Of a stretch of DNA of 64,000 nt, positions 53,781 to 62,479 are shown one piece after another (within the stretch, counting starts at the first letter, position 1; every line of letters starts with the position of its first letter). The stretch comes from Deltaproteobacteria bacterium (GTDB taxonomy: Bacteria; Myxococcota_A; Polyangia; HGW-17), in the NCBI GenBank assembly GCA_016937155.1, contig JAFGWM010000040.1, positions 62,001 through 126,000 on the forward strand. Direction: 5' to 3'. The translations under genes and the position numbers were made by a program. The notes beneath the pieces were generated by a model. It was given only the letters and a program-made list of their open reading frames with translations, searched no databases and had not been told where the DNA came from.

Positions 53781-54170
53781 ATGGATAGAAAATTTACCAA
53801 AAATCTAATTTCGAGACTGGCTTTTGGTATGCTGATGATAGGAGTTGTATTTTTGATATCAAGATTCCATCAGAAGGATGTGCCTAAATCCACAACAATA
53901 ATTCATTCAATTAAAGGTAGTCCCAATAGCACGATGTACAACCTGAATGGAAAAATAACGGATTCATCGGGTGAGGAAATATGGTTTGGAGAATTCAAAA
54001 TTAAAGGAAAATCTTATAAACATTCAGTAAAACTTCCCGATGGAGAATACAGAATAGACTTTATGCTCAGTGGGAAAAATGTATCTAAAGAGGTTTCACG
54101 TAATTTTTCAGGAGGAAGAAAAAAACTTCTGATAGAATATAATTTGTCAGACCATGTTATAGAACATTGA
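53781..54170 (+). CDS. Hypothetical membrane-anchored beta-rich protein
   Basis: The 129-residue protein has one N-terminal hydrophobic helix (about 10-27, LISRLAFGMLMIGVVFLI) and a predicted periplasmic beta-sandwich-like domain (YNLNGKITDSSGEEIWFGEF; LPDGEYRIDFML) that resembles carboxypeptidase-regulatory or PEGA-like small domains. SD GGGAG precedes the ATG. It lies 80 bases before the AglZ/FrzS-like gene, whose -35 box overlaps its stop codon. Confidence 0.65.
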   Translation: MDRKFTKNLISRLAFGMLMIGVVFLISRFHQKDVPKSTTIIHSIKGSPNSTMYNLNGKITDSSGEEIWFGEFKIKGKSYKHSVKLPDGEYRIDFMLSGKNVSKEVSRNFSGGRKKLLIEYNLSDHVIEH

Positions 54171-54256: not shown

Positions 54257-56863
54257 ATGGCAAACGGAACCGTTCTGGTAATTGACAATGAAAATTCTTT
54301 CATTAATGAAATCAAAACAGCTCTGGAACAAAATGATTATTCAGTAGAAATTCAGGAAGATGGTGTTTCCGGACTTCAGGCTGTTAAGGATCTTTCTCCA
54401 GTTGCAATTATACTCAGTGCGGAAGTTCCAAAGATGAGTGGTTATGCTGTATGTAACAGAATAAAGAAGAATCCTGAATTACAGGGTATTCCAGTTATGA
54501 TAACCTCTTCAGAAGCGACCGAAGAAAACTTTAAAAAACACAGTGAGTTGAAAAACAGAGCTGAAGCATACTTTTTTAAGACAGATCTTGATGTGAATAA
54601 TTTTATTTCAGTATTCAATGAAATGATAGGTGGTGGATCTTCTGAAGAAACACCTTTTTCCGGAGATTTTGGAGATTTTGCTGATTTCAATGATATTATT
54701 GAAGACATTGATAAGGAAACAAGTGCTGCCCTTGACGACATGATTGACGGAGCATTTGGAGAGATCGGAGATGGTGAGTCAGAAGATCTTTCATCTGAAA
54801 TACAGTATTTACCCAGTGGTGAAATAGAGGTTGTTACAGAAGAATCCCCGGATGAGTCATCCGAAGAGCCGGAGATTGCAACATTCACAACAGATGAACC
54901 TTCACCGGTTTCTATTTCCGGTGAGCATGAATCAATGGTGGATGATGATGAAAACGCAGAAATACCAGTTGAAGAATCAGTTGAAGAATCAGTTGTAGAG
55001 AATGAACCCCAGGAAGTTGAAGAGTCAGTTGAAGAGTCTGAACCGGAAGGTGTTATGGAAAATGTTCCGGGAACTGTTGATCAGGAAATGTCTGAAGAAC
55101 TAAATCTGGATTCCTCAATTCCTGAAGAAACATCTGAATCAGCAGTTGAAGAGCCTGTGTCTATTGAAGGAAACACTGAAGACAGTCTTTCTCTCAGCGA
55201 AAGTCTGGGGCTTGATGAACTGGTGGAGGAATCATCAAATCTTGATGGTGATGTTCTGGTTCAACTTGAAGAACTTAAAAGGGAAAAGGAAAAATTATCC
55301 AGGGAAATTACTCAATTGAAATCCGGCGGAAGTTCAACTCAGTTTTCAAAAGAACGTGAATTTCTTAATCTCCGTGAAGCAATAAATAGGAAAGAACGTG
55401 AAATAATTGATCTCAGAGGTGAGCTTGATGAGAAGGATGAGATGATCCTTCAGAAAAAAAATAAAATTAGAGAGCTTGAGAGGTCTAAGGCTGATCTTGA
55501 AGATTCCATCCTGAATCATGAAAGAAATGAAGTTGAGCTGCAGGAAAGTCTTTCCGGTTCCAAGTCTGAAAATTCTGAATTAACAGAGATAAATTCAAAA
55601 CTTTCAAGTGATCTCTCCGAGTCAAAATCGGAAATAGATAGGCTTAATAGTGAATTAGTTGAAGCAAAACAGTTAATTGACCAGCGTACTCAGGAAAATG
55701 CTGCTCAGATAGAAAAGCTTAACAACCAGCATGTTGGTGAAGTTGCAAATCTTAAAAGTAAGCATGAATCTGAAATTTCTGAACTGAGTCAGAGTCATGA
55801 AAATGAGAAAACTGAGATTTCCAGACTTCATGAAGAAAAAGTGACAAATTTGCAATCTGAGCATGATGAACTGGTAAGTGGATTGAAGACACAGCATCAG
55901 ACTCTTAGTGATGAACTTATTGAAAAATATGAAACAACGATAAAGGATAAGGATGCTGCTCATCAGTCTGAAGTTGAAAGGCTAACCAATGAGCATACGG
56001 GAATGGTGATCAATCTCAAAAACACTCATAGTGAGGAAATATCTTCACTGAAGACCACTCATGAGGAAACAGTAAATGAATTAAATTTATCTCATTCAGT
56101 TTTACTAGAAGAGAAGGAGACAGAATACAGAAATTCACTGGAAAACCTCAGAACAGAAAATTCCCGCAGAATTGAGGAATCCAATAATGAACACACCTCA
56201 GAAATTAACTCTTTAAACGAGAAATATTCCACTGAAATTGAGACACTGAAAACTGCACATGCAGAAGCGGTTTCGGCCCTCAAGGCTGAACATGAACAGA
56301 TTCTGGGTAACCTGAAAACTGAACATGAAAATCAGATACTGGAAATAGATAATGCTAATGAAGCAAGAATTTCTCAGTTAAGAGAAGAACATTCAGGGGT
56401 TATTTCTGAGCTTAAAAATGAACATGCCGCCGTTGTTGCAGATTTAAATGCCAGCCATGCCGAATCACAGGAAAAACTTGTTAATGAGTATACAGGTGAA
56501 GTGATCAATCTTAAAAACAGACACTCTCAGGAGATTGAAGAGTTAAATGGGGAGCATGCCGGCGTTGTTGCAGATCTTAATCTTCAGCATGAAACACTCA
56601 AGGGTCAACTGGAAGGAAATATCAGTGCTCTTGAAACTGAAAAAGAAGAGTTGAATTCTAGGATTTTTGAGCTTGAGCAGGCAAAATTCAGGAATGAAAC
56701 TGAAATAGAGGAATTAAAGGAAAACATAACTGAGCTTGAACAGAGTTTGAATAATGCTGTTTCATCGAGTGAAAAGGATCATGAAATTGCAGTATCCACT
56801 ATTAGTGCACTTTCGGATGCTCTGGTAGCGCTGAAGGATCGTTTTTCATCTGCTAATGACTGA
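54257..56863 (+). CDS. AglZ/FrzS-like pseudo-receiver plus long coiled-coil protein
   Basis: The ATG at 54257 has AAGGAGGC in place and begins MANGTVLVIDNE, the start of a receiver domain (868 residues in all). The receiver (about 1-125) lacks the phospho-acceptor Asp: the position holds Ser54 (IILSAEVPKMSGY), as in Myxococcus FrzS and AglZ pseudo-receivers, which it resembles over VCNRIKKNPELQGIPVMIT. An acidic Glu/Ser-rich linker (about 125-330) and a long coiled coil follow. Residues 492-778 are 26 unbroken 11-residue repeats. In myxobacteria such proteins sit at cell poles and drive gliding or polarity. The function here is inferred from architecture. Confidence 0.82.
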   Translation: MANGTVLVIDNENSFINEIKTALEQNDYSVEIQEDGVSGLQAVKDLSPVAIILSAEVPKMSGYAVCNRIKKNPELQGIPVMITSSEATEENFKKHSELKNRAEAYFFKTDLDVNNFISVFNEMIGGGSSEETPFSGDFGDFADFNDIIEDIDKETSAALDDMIDGAFGEIGDGESEDLSSEIQYLPSGEIEVVTEESPDESSEEPEIATFTTDEPSPVSISGEHESMVDDDENAEIPVEESVEESVVENEPQEVEESVEESEPEGVMENVPGTVDQEMSEELNLDSSIPEETSESAVEEPVSIEGNTEDSLSLSESLGLDELVEESSNLDGDVLVQLEELKREKEKLSREITQLKSGGSSTQFSKEREFLNLREAINRKEREIIDLRGELDEKDEMILQKKNKIRELERSKADLEDSILNHERNEVELQESLSGSKSENSELTEINSKLSSDLSESKSEIDRLNSELVEAKQLIDQRTQENAAQIEKLNNQHVGEVANLKSKHESEISELSQSHENEKTEISRLHEEKVTNLQSEHDELVSGLKTQHQTLSDELIEKYETTIKDKDAAHQSEVERLTNEHTGMVINLKNTHSEEISSLKTTHEETVNELNLSHSVLLEEKETEYRNSLENLRTENSRRIEESNNEHTSEINSLNEKYSTEIETLKTAHAEAVSALKAEHEQILGNLKTEHENQILEIDNANEARISQLREEHSGVISELKNEHAAVVADLNASHAESQEKLVNEYTGEVINLKNRHSQEIEELNGEHAGVVADLNLQHETLKGQLEGNISALETEKEELNSRIFELEQAKFRNETEIEELKENITELEQSLNNAVSSSEKDHEIAVSTISALSDALVALKDRFSSAND
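55730..56590 (+). repeat. 26 uninterrupted hendecad (11-residue) repeats
   Basis: From His492 to His778 every 11th residue is His (21 of 27), Tyr (4) or Asn (2), with no gap. Within a unit position 5 is mostly Val/Ile/Leu and position 8 mostly Leu. The DNA has an exact 33-base period. Hydrophobic spacing 4-3-4 is that of a hendecad coiled coil. Confidence 0.9.
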
Positions 56864-56899: not shown

Positions 56900-58213
56900 A
56901 TGAAAACAGGCTTTTCCTGGGGTGCTCTTTTTAACCAGATGAGAACAGGGGATCAAAGTGTTGTTGATAACAGAAGTGCTTTCCAGAGAGATTATGATCG
57001 AATTATCTTCAGTAGTCCTTTTAGACGGTTACAAAGTAAAACACAGGTTTTTCCACTACCTGAAGCTGATTTTATTCATACAAGAATGATGCATAGTCTT
57101 GAAGTTGGAAGTATTGGTAGATCAATGGGTTTTCTGGTACGTGAGAAACTGGATGCACTGGTTCCTGAATTGAATGAAAAAAACATTACACATTCAGATT
57201 TTGAGGGTGTATGTGCGGCGGCTTGTTTATGCCATGATATTGGAAATCCTCCTTTTGGACACAGTGGTGAAACTGCTATTGCTCATTATTTTAAGACACA
57301 TCCGGATCATTTAGAGGATTTGGATGATGACAAAAAGCATGATTTTTACACATTTGATGGAAATGCCATGGGTTTCAGACTCCTCACACATACACTGGAG
57401 GGCAGGTCTCTAAGAATGGGTGGTCTGGGGCTTACCAGAGCTTCCTTAGGAGCATTCATTAAGTATCCATGGACCAGTAAAAATGCCACATCAAAAGGTA
57501 AATATAACTGTTTCTCGGGTGATAATGATGTGTTTGATGACATCATGTCATCCCTTGGATTGAAAAGTGGAACCGGAAAATACTTCAGACATCCTCTTTC
57601 TTTTCTGGTGGAAGCCTCAGATGATATATGCTATCGGGTTATGGATCTGGAGGATGGTTACAGGCTGGGCATTGTAGGATTTTCCGAGATTGAGAATCTT
57701 TTTCGGAAAGTCATTGGTGAATCCTTTGACATAAAGAAATACTCCCTGATTCTGGAAGAGAAAGAGAAAATTGCCTGGCTGAGAGCTAAAACAATAAATA
57801 TCCTGATAGAAAGCATTTCTGATTCTTTTGTGAAAAATTATAATTTGATTATGACCGGAAATTTTTCAGCATCTCTTATTGAAATTATTAAGGAAAATAA
57901 AGAATTAGAGGATATTTTAAAAATAGAGAAAGAAAAGGTTTATTCCTACCGAAAAGTCATTGAGATTGAAACTGCGGGATTTGAAATAATTTCAGGTCTA
58001 ATTGATGCTTTTATTAAAGCTGTCCTAAGTAATGACAGTCATAGTAAAAAGATTTTGCAGCTTCTTCCGAAAACCTATATTTATTCTAAGGATTTGCATG
58101 ATTATAAGTATAACAGTATTATGAATATTGTTCAGTATATTGCTGGTATGACTGATACTTTTGCAGTAAATACATATAAAACGATCAAAGGAATAGAGTT
58201 GCCGAAATATTAA
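56900..58213 (+). CDS. dgt: Deoxyguanosinetriphosphate triphosphohydrolase (dGTPase)
   Basis: The 437-residue HD-domain protein cleaves dGTP to deoxyguanosine and triphosphate. Signatures: RDYDRIIFSSPFRRLQSKTQVF, HTRMMHSLEVGSIGR (His ligand), CHDIGNPPFGHSGE (the HD pair), and LVEASDDICYRVMDLEDG (the second Asp ligand). SD AAGGGG precedes the ATG. It ends 4 bases inside the convergent aroC gene. It probably balances dNTP pools together with ThyX and Tmk. Confidence 0.95.
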   Translation: MKTGFSWGALFNQMRTGDQSVVDNRSAFQRDYDRIIFSSPFRRLQSKTQVFPLPEADFIHTRMMHSLEVGSIGRSMGFLVREKLDALVPELNEKNITHSDFEGVCAAACLCHDIGNPPFGHSGETAIAHYFKTHPDHLEDLDDDKKHDFYTFDGNAMGFRLLTHTLEGRSLRMGGLGLTRASLGAFIKYPWTSKNATSKGKYNCFSGDNDVFDDIMSSLGLKSGTGKYFRHPLSFLVEASDDICYRVMDLEDGYRLGIVGFSEIENLFRKVIGESFDIKKYSLILEEKEKIAWLRAKTINILIESISDSFVKNYNLIMTGNFSASLIEIIKENKELEDILKIEKEKVYSYRKVIEIETAGFEIISGLIDAFIKAVLSNDSHSKKILQLLPKTYIYSKDLHDYKYNSIMNIVQYIAGMTDTFAVNTYKTIKGIELPKY

Positions 58214-59508
58214 AATAGAGAATTCTGTTTTTCTACACTCATTTTTATAATAATATCAAATATTTTTTTTAATTCAGATTTGTCAAGATCACTTCTTTCG
58301 ATTTCTGAAAGCCAGAAATTCCATAACTCTTCTTCTCTGGAGGGATCTTTTACCGGTATTCCTGACAGTTTTTTTAGATCAGCAATTTTCTCAACAGTGT
58401 TCATTCGTTCCTGAAGAATACTTATGAGTTCTAAATCCAGTCTGGAAATATCTGTTCGTAAATCACCAATGGTTTTTTCAGACTTCAGTTTATTCTGGAT
58501 ATAAATTGCATCAAGAAGGGTTATTGATATCATGGAGCGGACAACTTCACTTATTTTTGGAGCAATGCAGAAATCATGTCGTCCACCTGAGATATATTCA
58601 ACTTCTTCACCGTTAAAATTTTTTCCAGTGACTTTTTTTCCGACAGTTGGAACAGGCTTAACCGCCACTTTTATGTTGATATCATTTCCATCAGATATTC
58701 CCCCTGTAATTCCCCCGTCATTTTCAACATTTTCAAGATATTTAGTTCCTTTTATTTCTGTGGAATTAAAACCCATACCAAAGGATATACCTTTTACTCC
58801 TCCTATGCTCATTATAGAAGCAGCAAGAAGAGAATCCAGTTTCATTGCCACAGGATCGCCTATACCTGGATTTATTTTGCATATTCTAGCAGATACTGTA
58901 CCCCCTACACTGTCTTCAGAATCAATTAGGGTTTTTGAAAACTGTTCGAGTATGGGTATTTTTTCGGGATCTGGAATTCTGTATGGATTTTTATAAATAA
59001 ACTCCGGATCTTTTAATTCAAAATTCAATTCGCCGATTGAAGAAACCCATGATGTAATGGATATTCCCATTTCATTGAGAATTCTGCCGGCAAAATATCC
59101 ACCAATTGATCTACTGGCAGTTTCGCGCCCTGAAAGTCGCCCTCCACCCCTGTAATCATAATTTCCAAACTTTTTAAACCAAGCATAATCACCATGTCCA
59201 TTACGAAAAATATTTTTAAGATGCAGATAATCATCAGAACTATGATTAGAGTTTTTCAACAGTATACAAACTGGAGAACCGGTAGTTTTACCATTAAAAA
59301 TGCCTGAAATAATTATGGGAAAATCCTTCTCTTTTCTTCTGGAACTCAGTTCTCCTCCGGGGTGTCTTAGATTCAAAAACTCAGATAGATGGGTTTCTGA
59401 AAAATCAAGGTTACCAGGTATACCATCAATAACGGCTCCGATATAATCACCATGAGATTCACCGAAGGTTGTTACTGAAAAAAGATCTCCAAACGTGTTG
59501 AACCACAT
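58210..59508 (-). CDS. aroC: Chorismate synthase fused to chorismate mutase
   Basis: The ATG at 59508 has AGGAGG 6 bases before it and gives 432 residues starting MWFNTFGDLFSVTTFGESHG. Residues about 1-340 are chorismate synthase (FGESHG; RHPGGELSSRR; YRGGGRLSGRETASR; GRHDFCIAPK), which makes chorismate from EPSP with reduced FMN. Residues about 345-432 are an AroQ-type chorismate mutase: LRTDISRLD, LQERMNTVEKIADLKK, KDPSREEEL and the C-terminal Gln in SVEKQ; these cover the Arg, Lys, Asp, Arg, Glu and Gln active-site positions. So the product could be prephenate. The start lies 50 bases inside the aroK gene, so translation is coupled. Confidence 0.93.
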   Translation of the reverse strand: MWFNTFGDLFSVTTFGESHGDYIGAVIDGIPGNLDFSETHLSEFLNLRHPGGELSSRRKEKDFPIIISGIFNGKTTGSPVCILLKNSNHSSDDYLHLKNIFRNGHGDYAWFKKFGNYDYRGGGRLSGRETASRSIGGYFAGRILNEMGISITSWVSSIGELNFELKDPEFIYKNPYRIPDPEKIPILEQFSKTLIDSEDSVGGTVSARICKINPGIGDPVAMKLDSLLAASIMSIGGVKGISFGMGFNSTEIKGTKYLENVENDGGITGGISDGNDINIKVAVKPVPTVGKKVTGKNFNGEEVEYISGGRHDFCIAPKISEVVRSMISITLLDAIYIQNKLKSEKTIGDLRTDISRLDLELISILQERMNTVEKIADLKKLSGIPVKDPSREEELWNFWLSEIERSDLDKSELKKIFDIIIKMSVEKQNSLF

Positions 59509-59977
59509 GAACCACCTCCTCAGTTGTAAGAATACCGGTATCAACTGATAACAGGGAAGAATCTGAGTACCTTAAAATGCGTCTTGAAAGTAAATTTTTA
59601 ATCTGATCCTCAATATCATCGTCCATATTGTAAACAGGTCTTGGAGTTGATAGTATCCTTGATGTCAAAATCTCAGTTGAGGTTTTGAGCCATATAGTAA
59701 AATTATGTTTTAAAATTTCCATTGAATTGGGATTTTCTATGATACCACCACCACAACTGATTATATTTCCACCAGTTGACAGCTTTTTCAGGAGTTGATA
59801 TTCAATCTCTCTGAATTCGCTCTGCCTGTTTTTAATCCAGTTTTCAATAGTAAATCCATAATGAGATTCAATAATTGAATCCGTATCATGAAGTTCCAGA
59901 TCAAGATATTTTGCCAACTCCATTCCAACGGTGGTTTTTCCACTTCCTGGCATTCCTATTAATATTATTGATTTCAT
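59459..59977 (-). CDS. aroK: Shikimate kinase
   Basis: The 172-residue kinase phosphorylates shikimate at O3. It has Walker A GMPGSGKTT, the shikimate-binding HDTDSIIE (DxD), the Arg in FREIE, the GGG motif ISCGGGII, and the LID Arg in TPRPVY. Length and motifs are normal. It overlaps the end of aroA-side neighbour (59974) by 4 bases and its last 50 bases overlap the aroC start. Confidence 0.95.
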   Translation of the reverse strand: MKSIILIGMPGSGKTTVGMELAKYLDLELHDTDSIIESHYGFTIENWIKNRQSEFREIEYQLLKKLSTGGNIISCGGGIIENPNSMEILKHNFTIWLKTSTEILTSRILSTPRPVYNMDDDIEDQIKNLLSRRILRYSDSSLLSVDTGILTTEEVVHVVQHVWRSFFSNNLR

Positions 59978-61164: not shown

Positions 61165-62479
61165 AATCCGCCTCAATATCTTCCATGCTGATACTCTGTC
61201 CTGTAATCAGAAATATCTGGGGGATTCCCTGAAGTCTCCAGAAATAATCACCAGGGATGATTGTATCAAAAACAGAATAAAAATTTCGATTCCAGACAGG
61301 GAGATCCAGTAGTATTGAGCTTTTAATTCTGCGGTTGGTAATATCAAATGGATGTGAAGAAGAGTTAACTTCTAAGGGAAGTGTATTTATGAAAAGTGTA
61401 TCAGAAAAAACTTTCTCCGTTAGCTTCGAGTTTCTTGGTAATAAAGTTATTTTTCCGCTAAATCCTAATTCTTTGAGTGCCCCAACAGCAGTTTTTGAAG
61501 TCGCACCATTGCCAGCGATTACAACATTTTTAAACGAATTCTCTTTGAATATCTGAGTGAAAGCCAGGAAATCGGTATTGAAGCCTGATAATTTATTATT
61601 TCTGAGGATTACAGTATTTACAGAACTAGAAATTTCACTGGTTTTATCAATGTTATCACACTGTTTCATTAAATCAGTTTTTAACGGCATTGTAATACTG
61701 CAGCCGGGAGAATTGGTAATTGTCAGAAATCTTTTTAAATCAGGAATGTCTTCACATGATTGATTTATATAACAAAAAGGAAAAGAATTTTTTTTGAATA
61801 TTCTGTTATATACTCTCATTCCAGGACTGCTGAACACGTTTTGTCCCCCAAGAAGAAATACAGGATTAAGATTATTTTCCAGTATTCTGCTGGCAATTGC
61901 TTTTTCATAGGGAATTTGACCGCTATCAGTGATGCTTTCACTGTTGAGACTAAGAAAAGTCAGATAACTTCCAAAATCCTGATACCTCAGCCTTGTGTAA
62001 AGTCCATTTTGCCCGGTAGCAATGACAATTGAACCAGGGAATTCTTCTATCGAGGCTTTTAAATATTTCAACTGATCAACTGATTTTATTTTAACTGCGA
62101 ATTTATACCTATAATCCGGTAATTGCCTGAAAATTTTAAGAGCGTCTAAAAATAAATCTGCATCACCATGCCAGGATATCAATAAATTATCTTTTGAGAT
62201 ACTGTTCAGATATTCGGAGCTGGAAAGATATTTATCCAGTTCGATATCCACCAAAAAGAAATTTTCAGATATAAACGGTGAAAGTAAATTAATGGATTTT
62301 GAAAAATTCCGATGCCGATGGGTTATTATAACTTTTGATTTCCACGGTGACAGGATTTTTATAATATCAGATGGGATATCCGAGAGGAAATCCAAACGGA
62401 TTTCATTTAATCCAGAAAAATTTGTTAATCTGGAGATTATTTTTTTAGGTTCAGTCTCATTTCCTGTAAGGCAGATCAT
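61151..62479 (-). CDS. aroDE: Bifunctional 3-dehydroquinate dehydratase / shikimate dehydrogenase (AroD-AroE)
   Basis: The 442-residue fusion has a type I dehydroquinase (about 1-205) with EIRLDFLSD, the His in ISWHGDAD and the Schiff-base Lys in YKFAVKIKS, followed by shikimate dehydrogenase (about 205-442). The second half shows SSPGMRVYNRIF (shikimate site), SITMPLKTD (catalytic Lys), GFNTDFLAF (catalytic Asp) and the NADP loop AGNGATSKTA. It turns dehydroquinate into shikimate. Similar AroD-AroE fusions are known in plants and Chlamydiae. Its ATG overlaps the aroB stop by 4 bases. Confidence 0.93.
   Translation of the reverse strand: MICLTGNETEPKKIISRLTNFSGLNEIRLDFLSDIPSDIIKILSPWKSKVIITHRHRNFSKSINLLSPFISENFFLVDIELDKYLSSSEYLNSISKDNLLISWHGDADLFLDALKIFRQLPDYRYKFAVKIKSVDQLKYLKASIEEFPGSIVIATGQNGLYTRLRYQDFGSYLTFLSLNSESITDSGQIPYEKAIASRILENNLNPVFLLGGQNVFSSPGMRVYNRIFKKNSFPFCYINQSCEDIPDLKRFLTITNSPGCSITMPLKTDLMKQCDNIDKTSEISSSVNTVILRNNKLSGFNTDFLAFTQIFKENSFKNVVIAGNGATSKTAVGALKELGFSGKITLLPRNSKLTEKVFSDTLFINTLPLEVNSSSHPFDITNRRIKSSILLDLPVWNRNFYSVFDTIIPGDYFWRLQGIPQIFLITGQSISMEDIEADFDLY

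Follow-up and report, generated by a model that had tools for sequence, protein, structure and literature searches.

A 27-unit hendecad array with a recurring His/Tyr/Asn position in an AglZ/FrzS-like protein of the Myxococcota

The long rods of AglZ/FrzS-type proteins are treated as generic heptad coiled coils, but the gene described here encodes one with a long, clean hendecad in which the position expected at the axis is polar. The gene lies in a window of 64,000 nucleotides (contig JAFGWM010000040.1 of a Deltaproteobacteria bacterium, positions 62,001 to 126,000), where an original prediction, made from the letters alone, had pointed to a histidine returning every 11 residues along the coil. 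The question is whether this pattern is real, which way the histidines would face, and whether they serve the structure of the rod or something else, such as a response to pH or metal. The gene and the parts of its product are as follows.

54257..56863, plus strand: gene for the AglZ/FrzS-like putative motility scaffold, 868 aa (ORF; ATG start)
54257..54631, plus strand: N-terminal pseudo-receiver, residues 1-125 (Response_reg, 4.5e-12; FrzS 2gkg, 2.2e-10)
54635..55348, plus strand: acidic linker, predicted disordered, residues 127-364, 238 residues (pLDDT < 50; composition)
55355..55699, plus strand: neck, a heptad-like helix with the motif FSKEREFLNLREAINRKEREIIDL, residues 367-481 (period 3.5; predicted helix)
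55730..56620, plus strand: hendecad array of 27 units, residues 492-788 (11-residue rows; periodicity)
56621..56860, plus strand: C-terminal heptad-like helix, residues 789-868 (period 3.5; helix predicted to residue 862)

The ATG at 54257 was picked as the start because both the Pfam receiver domain and the relatives start at this point. By its sequence the 868-residue protein is an AglZ/FrzS-like scaffold, as originally proposed: FrzS is the best PDB match of the receiver domain, and in the alignment His95 and Tyr105 are the equivalents of FrzS His92 and Tyr102, both shown to matter in the FrzS receiver (PMC1974792). Ser54 aligns with Ala53 of FrzS and with the phosphorylated Asp of CheY, so the phospho-acceptor Asp is absent. 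In the AlphaFold monomer model the pseudo-receiver has pLDDT values mostly of 84-90. The linker that follows carries a net charge of -69, and the neck motif FSKEREFLNLREAINRKEREIIDL is kept in the relatives. Beyond the linker the periodicity and the monomer model agree on a long C-terminal coiled coil, with helix predicted at residues 367-642 and 658-862 (~495 residues overall) and one low-confidence interruption near residues 643-657 (window 56183-56227, pLDDT in the high 50s). This break is a possible hinge or a possible artefact of the model. It lies near the weakest units of the array, which have Tyr or Asn at the axis position and a polar residue at position 8.

The same genome, judged by its relatives a Myxococcota MAG, encodes an MglA-like protein (4e-106 to M. 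xanthus MglA) whose gene adjoins that of a Roadblock protein, and on the basis of this pair we count both MglA and MglB as present. This mglBA-like operon lies on a different contig (L116, 3441-4521). From the sequence we infer a motility scaffold role for the 868-residue protein. Directly upstream of its gene (window 53781-54170, plus strand) is a gene for a 129-residue protein that has no convincing Pfam family; similar ORFs lie upstream in L003, L007 and L009 (E 3e-18 to 5e-10), and it may be a conserved partner. On the other side, window 58213-59544 on the minus strand encodes a chorismate synthase with a type II chorismate mutase fused at its C-terminus (Pfam 4.5e-97 and 1.8e-17).

Counted from the ATG, residue 492 is encoded at 55730-55732 and residue 778 at 56588-56590, and between them His (21), Tyr (4) or Asn (2) recurs at every eleventh residue with zero insertions, exactly as claimed. 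The array is unbroken, as predicted, although the count of 26 units has to be corrected to 27 positions separated by 26 steps. Its last unit (778-788) is weak, and Asn481 would add one unit to the column upstream. Position 5 of the unit, said to be Val or Ile, is Val, Ile or Leu in 23/27 units, and position 8, said to be Leu, is Leu or Ile in 24/27. All 21 histidines of the segment fall in a single phase of 11, while the best of 20,000 shuffles placed 9 there. The proposed 4-3-4 hendecad register is borne out in the same way: the hydrophobic period is 3.667 residues and the register is never broken, with the ILVMF periodogram giving a power of 30.0 at 11/3, 3.1 at 3.6 and 0.6, which is no signal, at 3.5. 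Heptad-like stretches flank the array by periodicity, at residues 331-473 before it and 793-868 after it. In the classic hendecad the a, d and h positions are predominantly hydrophobic (PMC9858780), whereas here the third core position is His, Tyr or Asn in 27/27 units and the three are not all hydrophobic. Judged by this residue pattern, the array would behave as a hendecad, in a variant form with polar x-layers.

Which way the column faces can be estimated from the residues around it. On a helical wheel with 11 residues to 3 turns, position 1 has positions 5 and 8 at ~33 degrees on its two sides, and the hydrophobic moment, calculated with the His column excluded, points 0.9 degrees from that column. 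Because the moment aims at the His column even when His is left out, we place His in the axis-facing x-layer. The same neighbourhood is found across 90 family members, in which Val, Ile, Leu or Met occupies 53% of sites at -7 from a coil His, 46% at -4, 59% at +4 and 45% at +7, against a background of 18%; the values are low at all other offsets and the profile is symmetric about His. The His column thus runs along the middle of the hydrophobic seam, in agreement with the expectation of a polar residue at a core or near-core position, and the side chains probably face the axis.

Dimeric hendecads require a small residue, typically Ala, at the axis-facing position (PMC9858780), and a His column may therefore point to a different packing or to a chain number above two. 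Large polar residues in x-layers, which crowd the axis of hendecads so that small residues or more strands are needed, would have more room in a bundle of three or four strands, or in an antiparallel one, than in a parallel dimer. A crude charge model of two helices as straight rods also does not prefer parallel in-register pairing and scores the best antiparallel offsets higher. The a/d residue preference of parallel dimers is an established rule for heptads, and Val/Ile at position 5 with Leu at position 8 recalls it, which speaks for a parallel dimer without being decisive. Nor is it decisive that DRC4, the nearest PDB match to the repeat profile, has been reported as a dimeric coiled coil (PMC10504270). 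We regard a roomier bundle as a tentative alternative, one that deserves weight but that we would not bet on.

Relatives of the protein were found at 1e-10 in 53/59 genomes (its own included; most of the same class). At the column, the same-genus protein has 22 His, 4 Asn, 3 Tyr and 1 Phe over ~30 units, and a relative from another family of the order has 26 His, 8 Tyr, 1 Ala and 1 Arg over 36 units. When the same-genus protein is aligned with ours, the His column is identical at 18/27 units and the Leu column at 21/27, against 8-13/27 for the other columns, and the changes at the His column are swaps among His, Tyr, Asn and Phe only. Over the 90 family members pooled, there are 323 His-His pairs 11 residues apart compared with 31 by shuffling, a tenfold excess that recurs at lags of 22, 33 and 44; individually, 47/90 exceed shuffling more than threefold at lag 11. 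The original prediction had staked itself on orthologues keeping the 11-residue register and the His. This holds for near relatives, which retain the register and restrict what replaces His, but some of the wider relatives vary the column or lose it. Their axis position can also be Arg, Leu, Ala, Ser or Gln, and His at lag 11 is nearly absent in Minicystis rosea and in an Anaeromyxobacter relative. With units picked by their hydrophobic residues alone, the axis position in the relatives is His in 48%, Arg in 16%, Leu in 8% and Ala in 7%.

By eye, Arg (QRRQGELAQAE, DRDAKVAEVTA) or Trp (KEATWQSTLSE) recurs in the 11-residue repeats of the L006, L082 and L085 rods; choosing units by hydrophobic residues supports Arg at the axis position in L006 and L082. 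A repeat-profile search at E 1e-8 through 113 genomes across the phylum returned this genome alone, so this threshold was too tight; at a relaxed threshold, 45/193 matched in a search of the relatives' genomes. At 25/29 of the other repeat-profile loci in those genomes, the receiver or the neck of the AglZ/FrzS-like family is present.

Rod length differs between relatives mostly by whole 11-residue units. Compared with the same-genus protein, the rod has two gaps, each of exactly 11 residues; compared with L009 the gaps are of 33, 66, 55 and 22 residues; and with L004 and L008 many are multiples of 11 and some are not. The rods of relatives carry DNA tandem repeats of 33, 132, 165 and 231 bases, all multiples of 33, and this raises the question of whether tandem duplication of a single ancestral unit left the His column behind as a side effect, His itself not being selected. 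In the gene described here, TRF detects no DNA tandem repeat in the array segment, which means that the pattern is maintained at the protein level, and the other unit positions have diverged. His runs are also seen in many divergent relatives. The unequal conservation of the columns in the same-genus alignment has already weakened the by-product reading, as far as column counts can tell, and we consider it improbable.

A rival reading of the column is a response to pH or metal, in which protonation, or Zn or Ni at stacked His layers, would shift the stability or assembly of the rod. There are 21 regularly spaced and putatively axis-facing histidines, and His is the commonest axis residue across the relatives. 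No test spoke for the pH response or metal binding raised by the original prediction, and the Tyr, Asn and Phe of the column, which take the place of His while the array stays intact, speak against a ligand site in each layer. Some relatives lack the His column or have Arg, Ala or other residues in its place. Because x-layers are 1.65 nm apart, neighbouring layers are unable to share a metal, and the gene surroundings give no pointer to metal or pH. Given that Tyr, Asn and Phe replace His and that other lineages use other residues, we disfavour this role and think it unlikely. The bolder form of the idea, that a rod with its axis lined by His over ~45 nm has its stiffness or assembly tuned along its length by cytoplasmic pH or a transition metal, we hold to be slightly less likely still. 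The rod also contains no Cys, a further point against the pH or metal role, and a Zn-finger or enzyme reading of the array was set aside on this ground and on that of the predicted helix.

Our preferred reading, to which we give good but not overwhelming odds, is that the protein is an AglZ/FrzS-family scaffold of an MglA-dependent polarity and motility system, with a hendecad rod that winds little, polar or aromatic x-layers that are structural, and a length that changes by units. The acidic disordered linker would tether the pseudo-receiver head to the long helical rod, whose middle 27 units (~45 nm) would form a hendecad coiled coil with little or no winding. Val/Ile at position 5 and Leu at position 8 would flank the seam and the His, Tyr or Asn of position 1 would fill the axis-facing x-layer, once every 1.65 nm along the rod. 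Most likely the x-layer is a structural solution in which planar side chains can form hydrogen bonds or pack together over the axis; these residues would space and specify the association. In-frame gain or loss of 11-residue units would then change the length of the rod. For the oligomeric state and the straightness of the rod we infer what the repeat pattern suggests.

The array provides a test case for large polar residues in hendecad x-layers. Since a hendecad with a polar axis position recurs in the AglZ/FrzS-like family across one order of Myxococcota, its members also form a natural series of rod lengths, in which one may ask whether length or straightness sets the spacing of motility complexes.

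Hendecads as such are already known. In the titles and abstracts of the searchable literature, outside the hendecad survey in J Struct Biol 2023, 215:108007, we found no description of a long His-lined hendecad, which thus appears to be undescribed. The raw repeat gave only weak, unrelated matches in PDB. In PDB the repeat profile matches DRC4/GAS8 best (E 8e-4), a protein of the nexin-dynein regulatory complex with His, Phe and Tyr at 11-residue steps in one stretch, but this protein is eukaryotic and has ~3 such units only, and the match implies no homology. A domain search of the 868-residue protein gave no match to a DivIVA-like domain. FrzS of M. xanthus (2GKG) has the same layout as the protein described here, with an N-terminal pseudo-receiver that lacks the Asp and contains His92 and Tyr102, followed by a long C-terminal coiled coil; its coiled coil has 258 residues (PMC1974792), compared with ~495 here, including the 27-unit hendecad core. 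AglZ, an MglA-binding and filament-forming protein of M. xanthus (PMC3000849, PMC7002697), shares the pseudo-receiver and the long coiled coil, a likeness that we take from its description only. That description is of heptad repeats (PMC3000849), as the original prediction said, in contrast to the hendecad array seen here. FilP and Scy of the Actinobacteria are likewise long bacterial coiled coils of cytoskeletal type with extended hendecads, but their core is Ala-rich (PMC9858780), whereas His, Tyr or Asn occupies the axis position in the rod described here.
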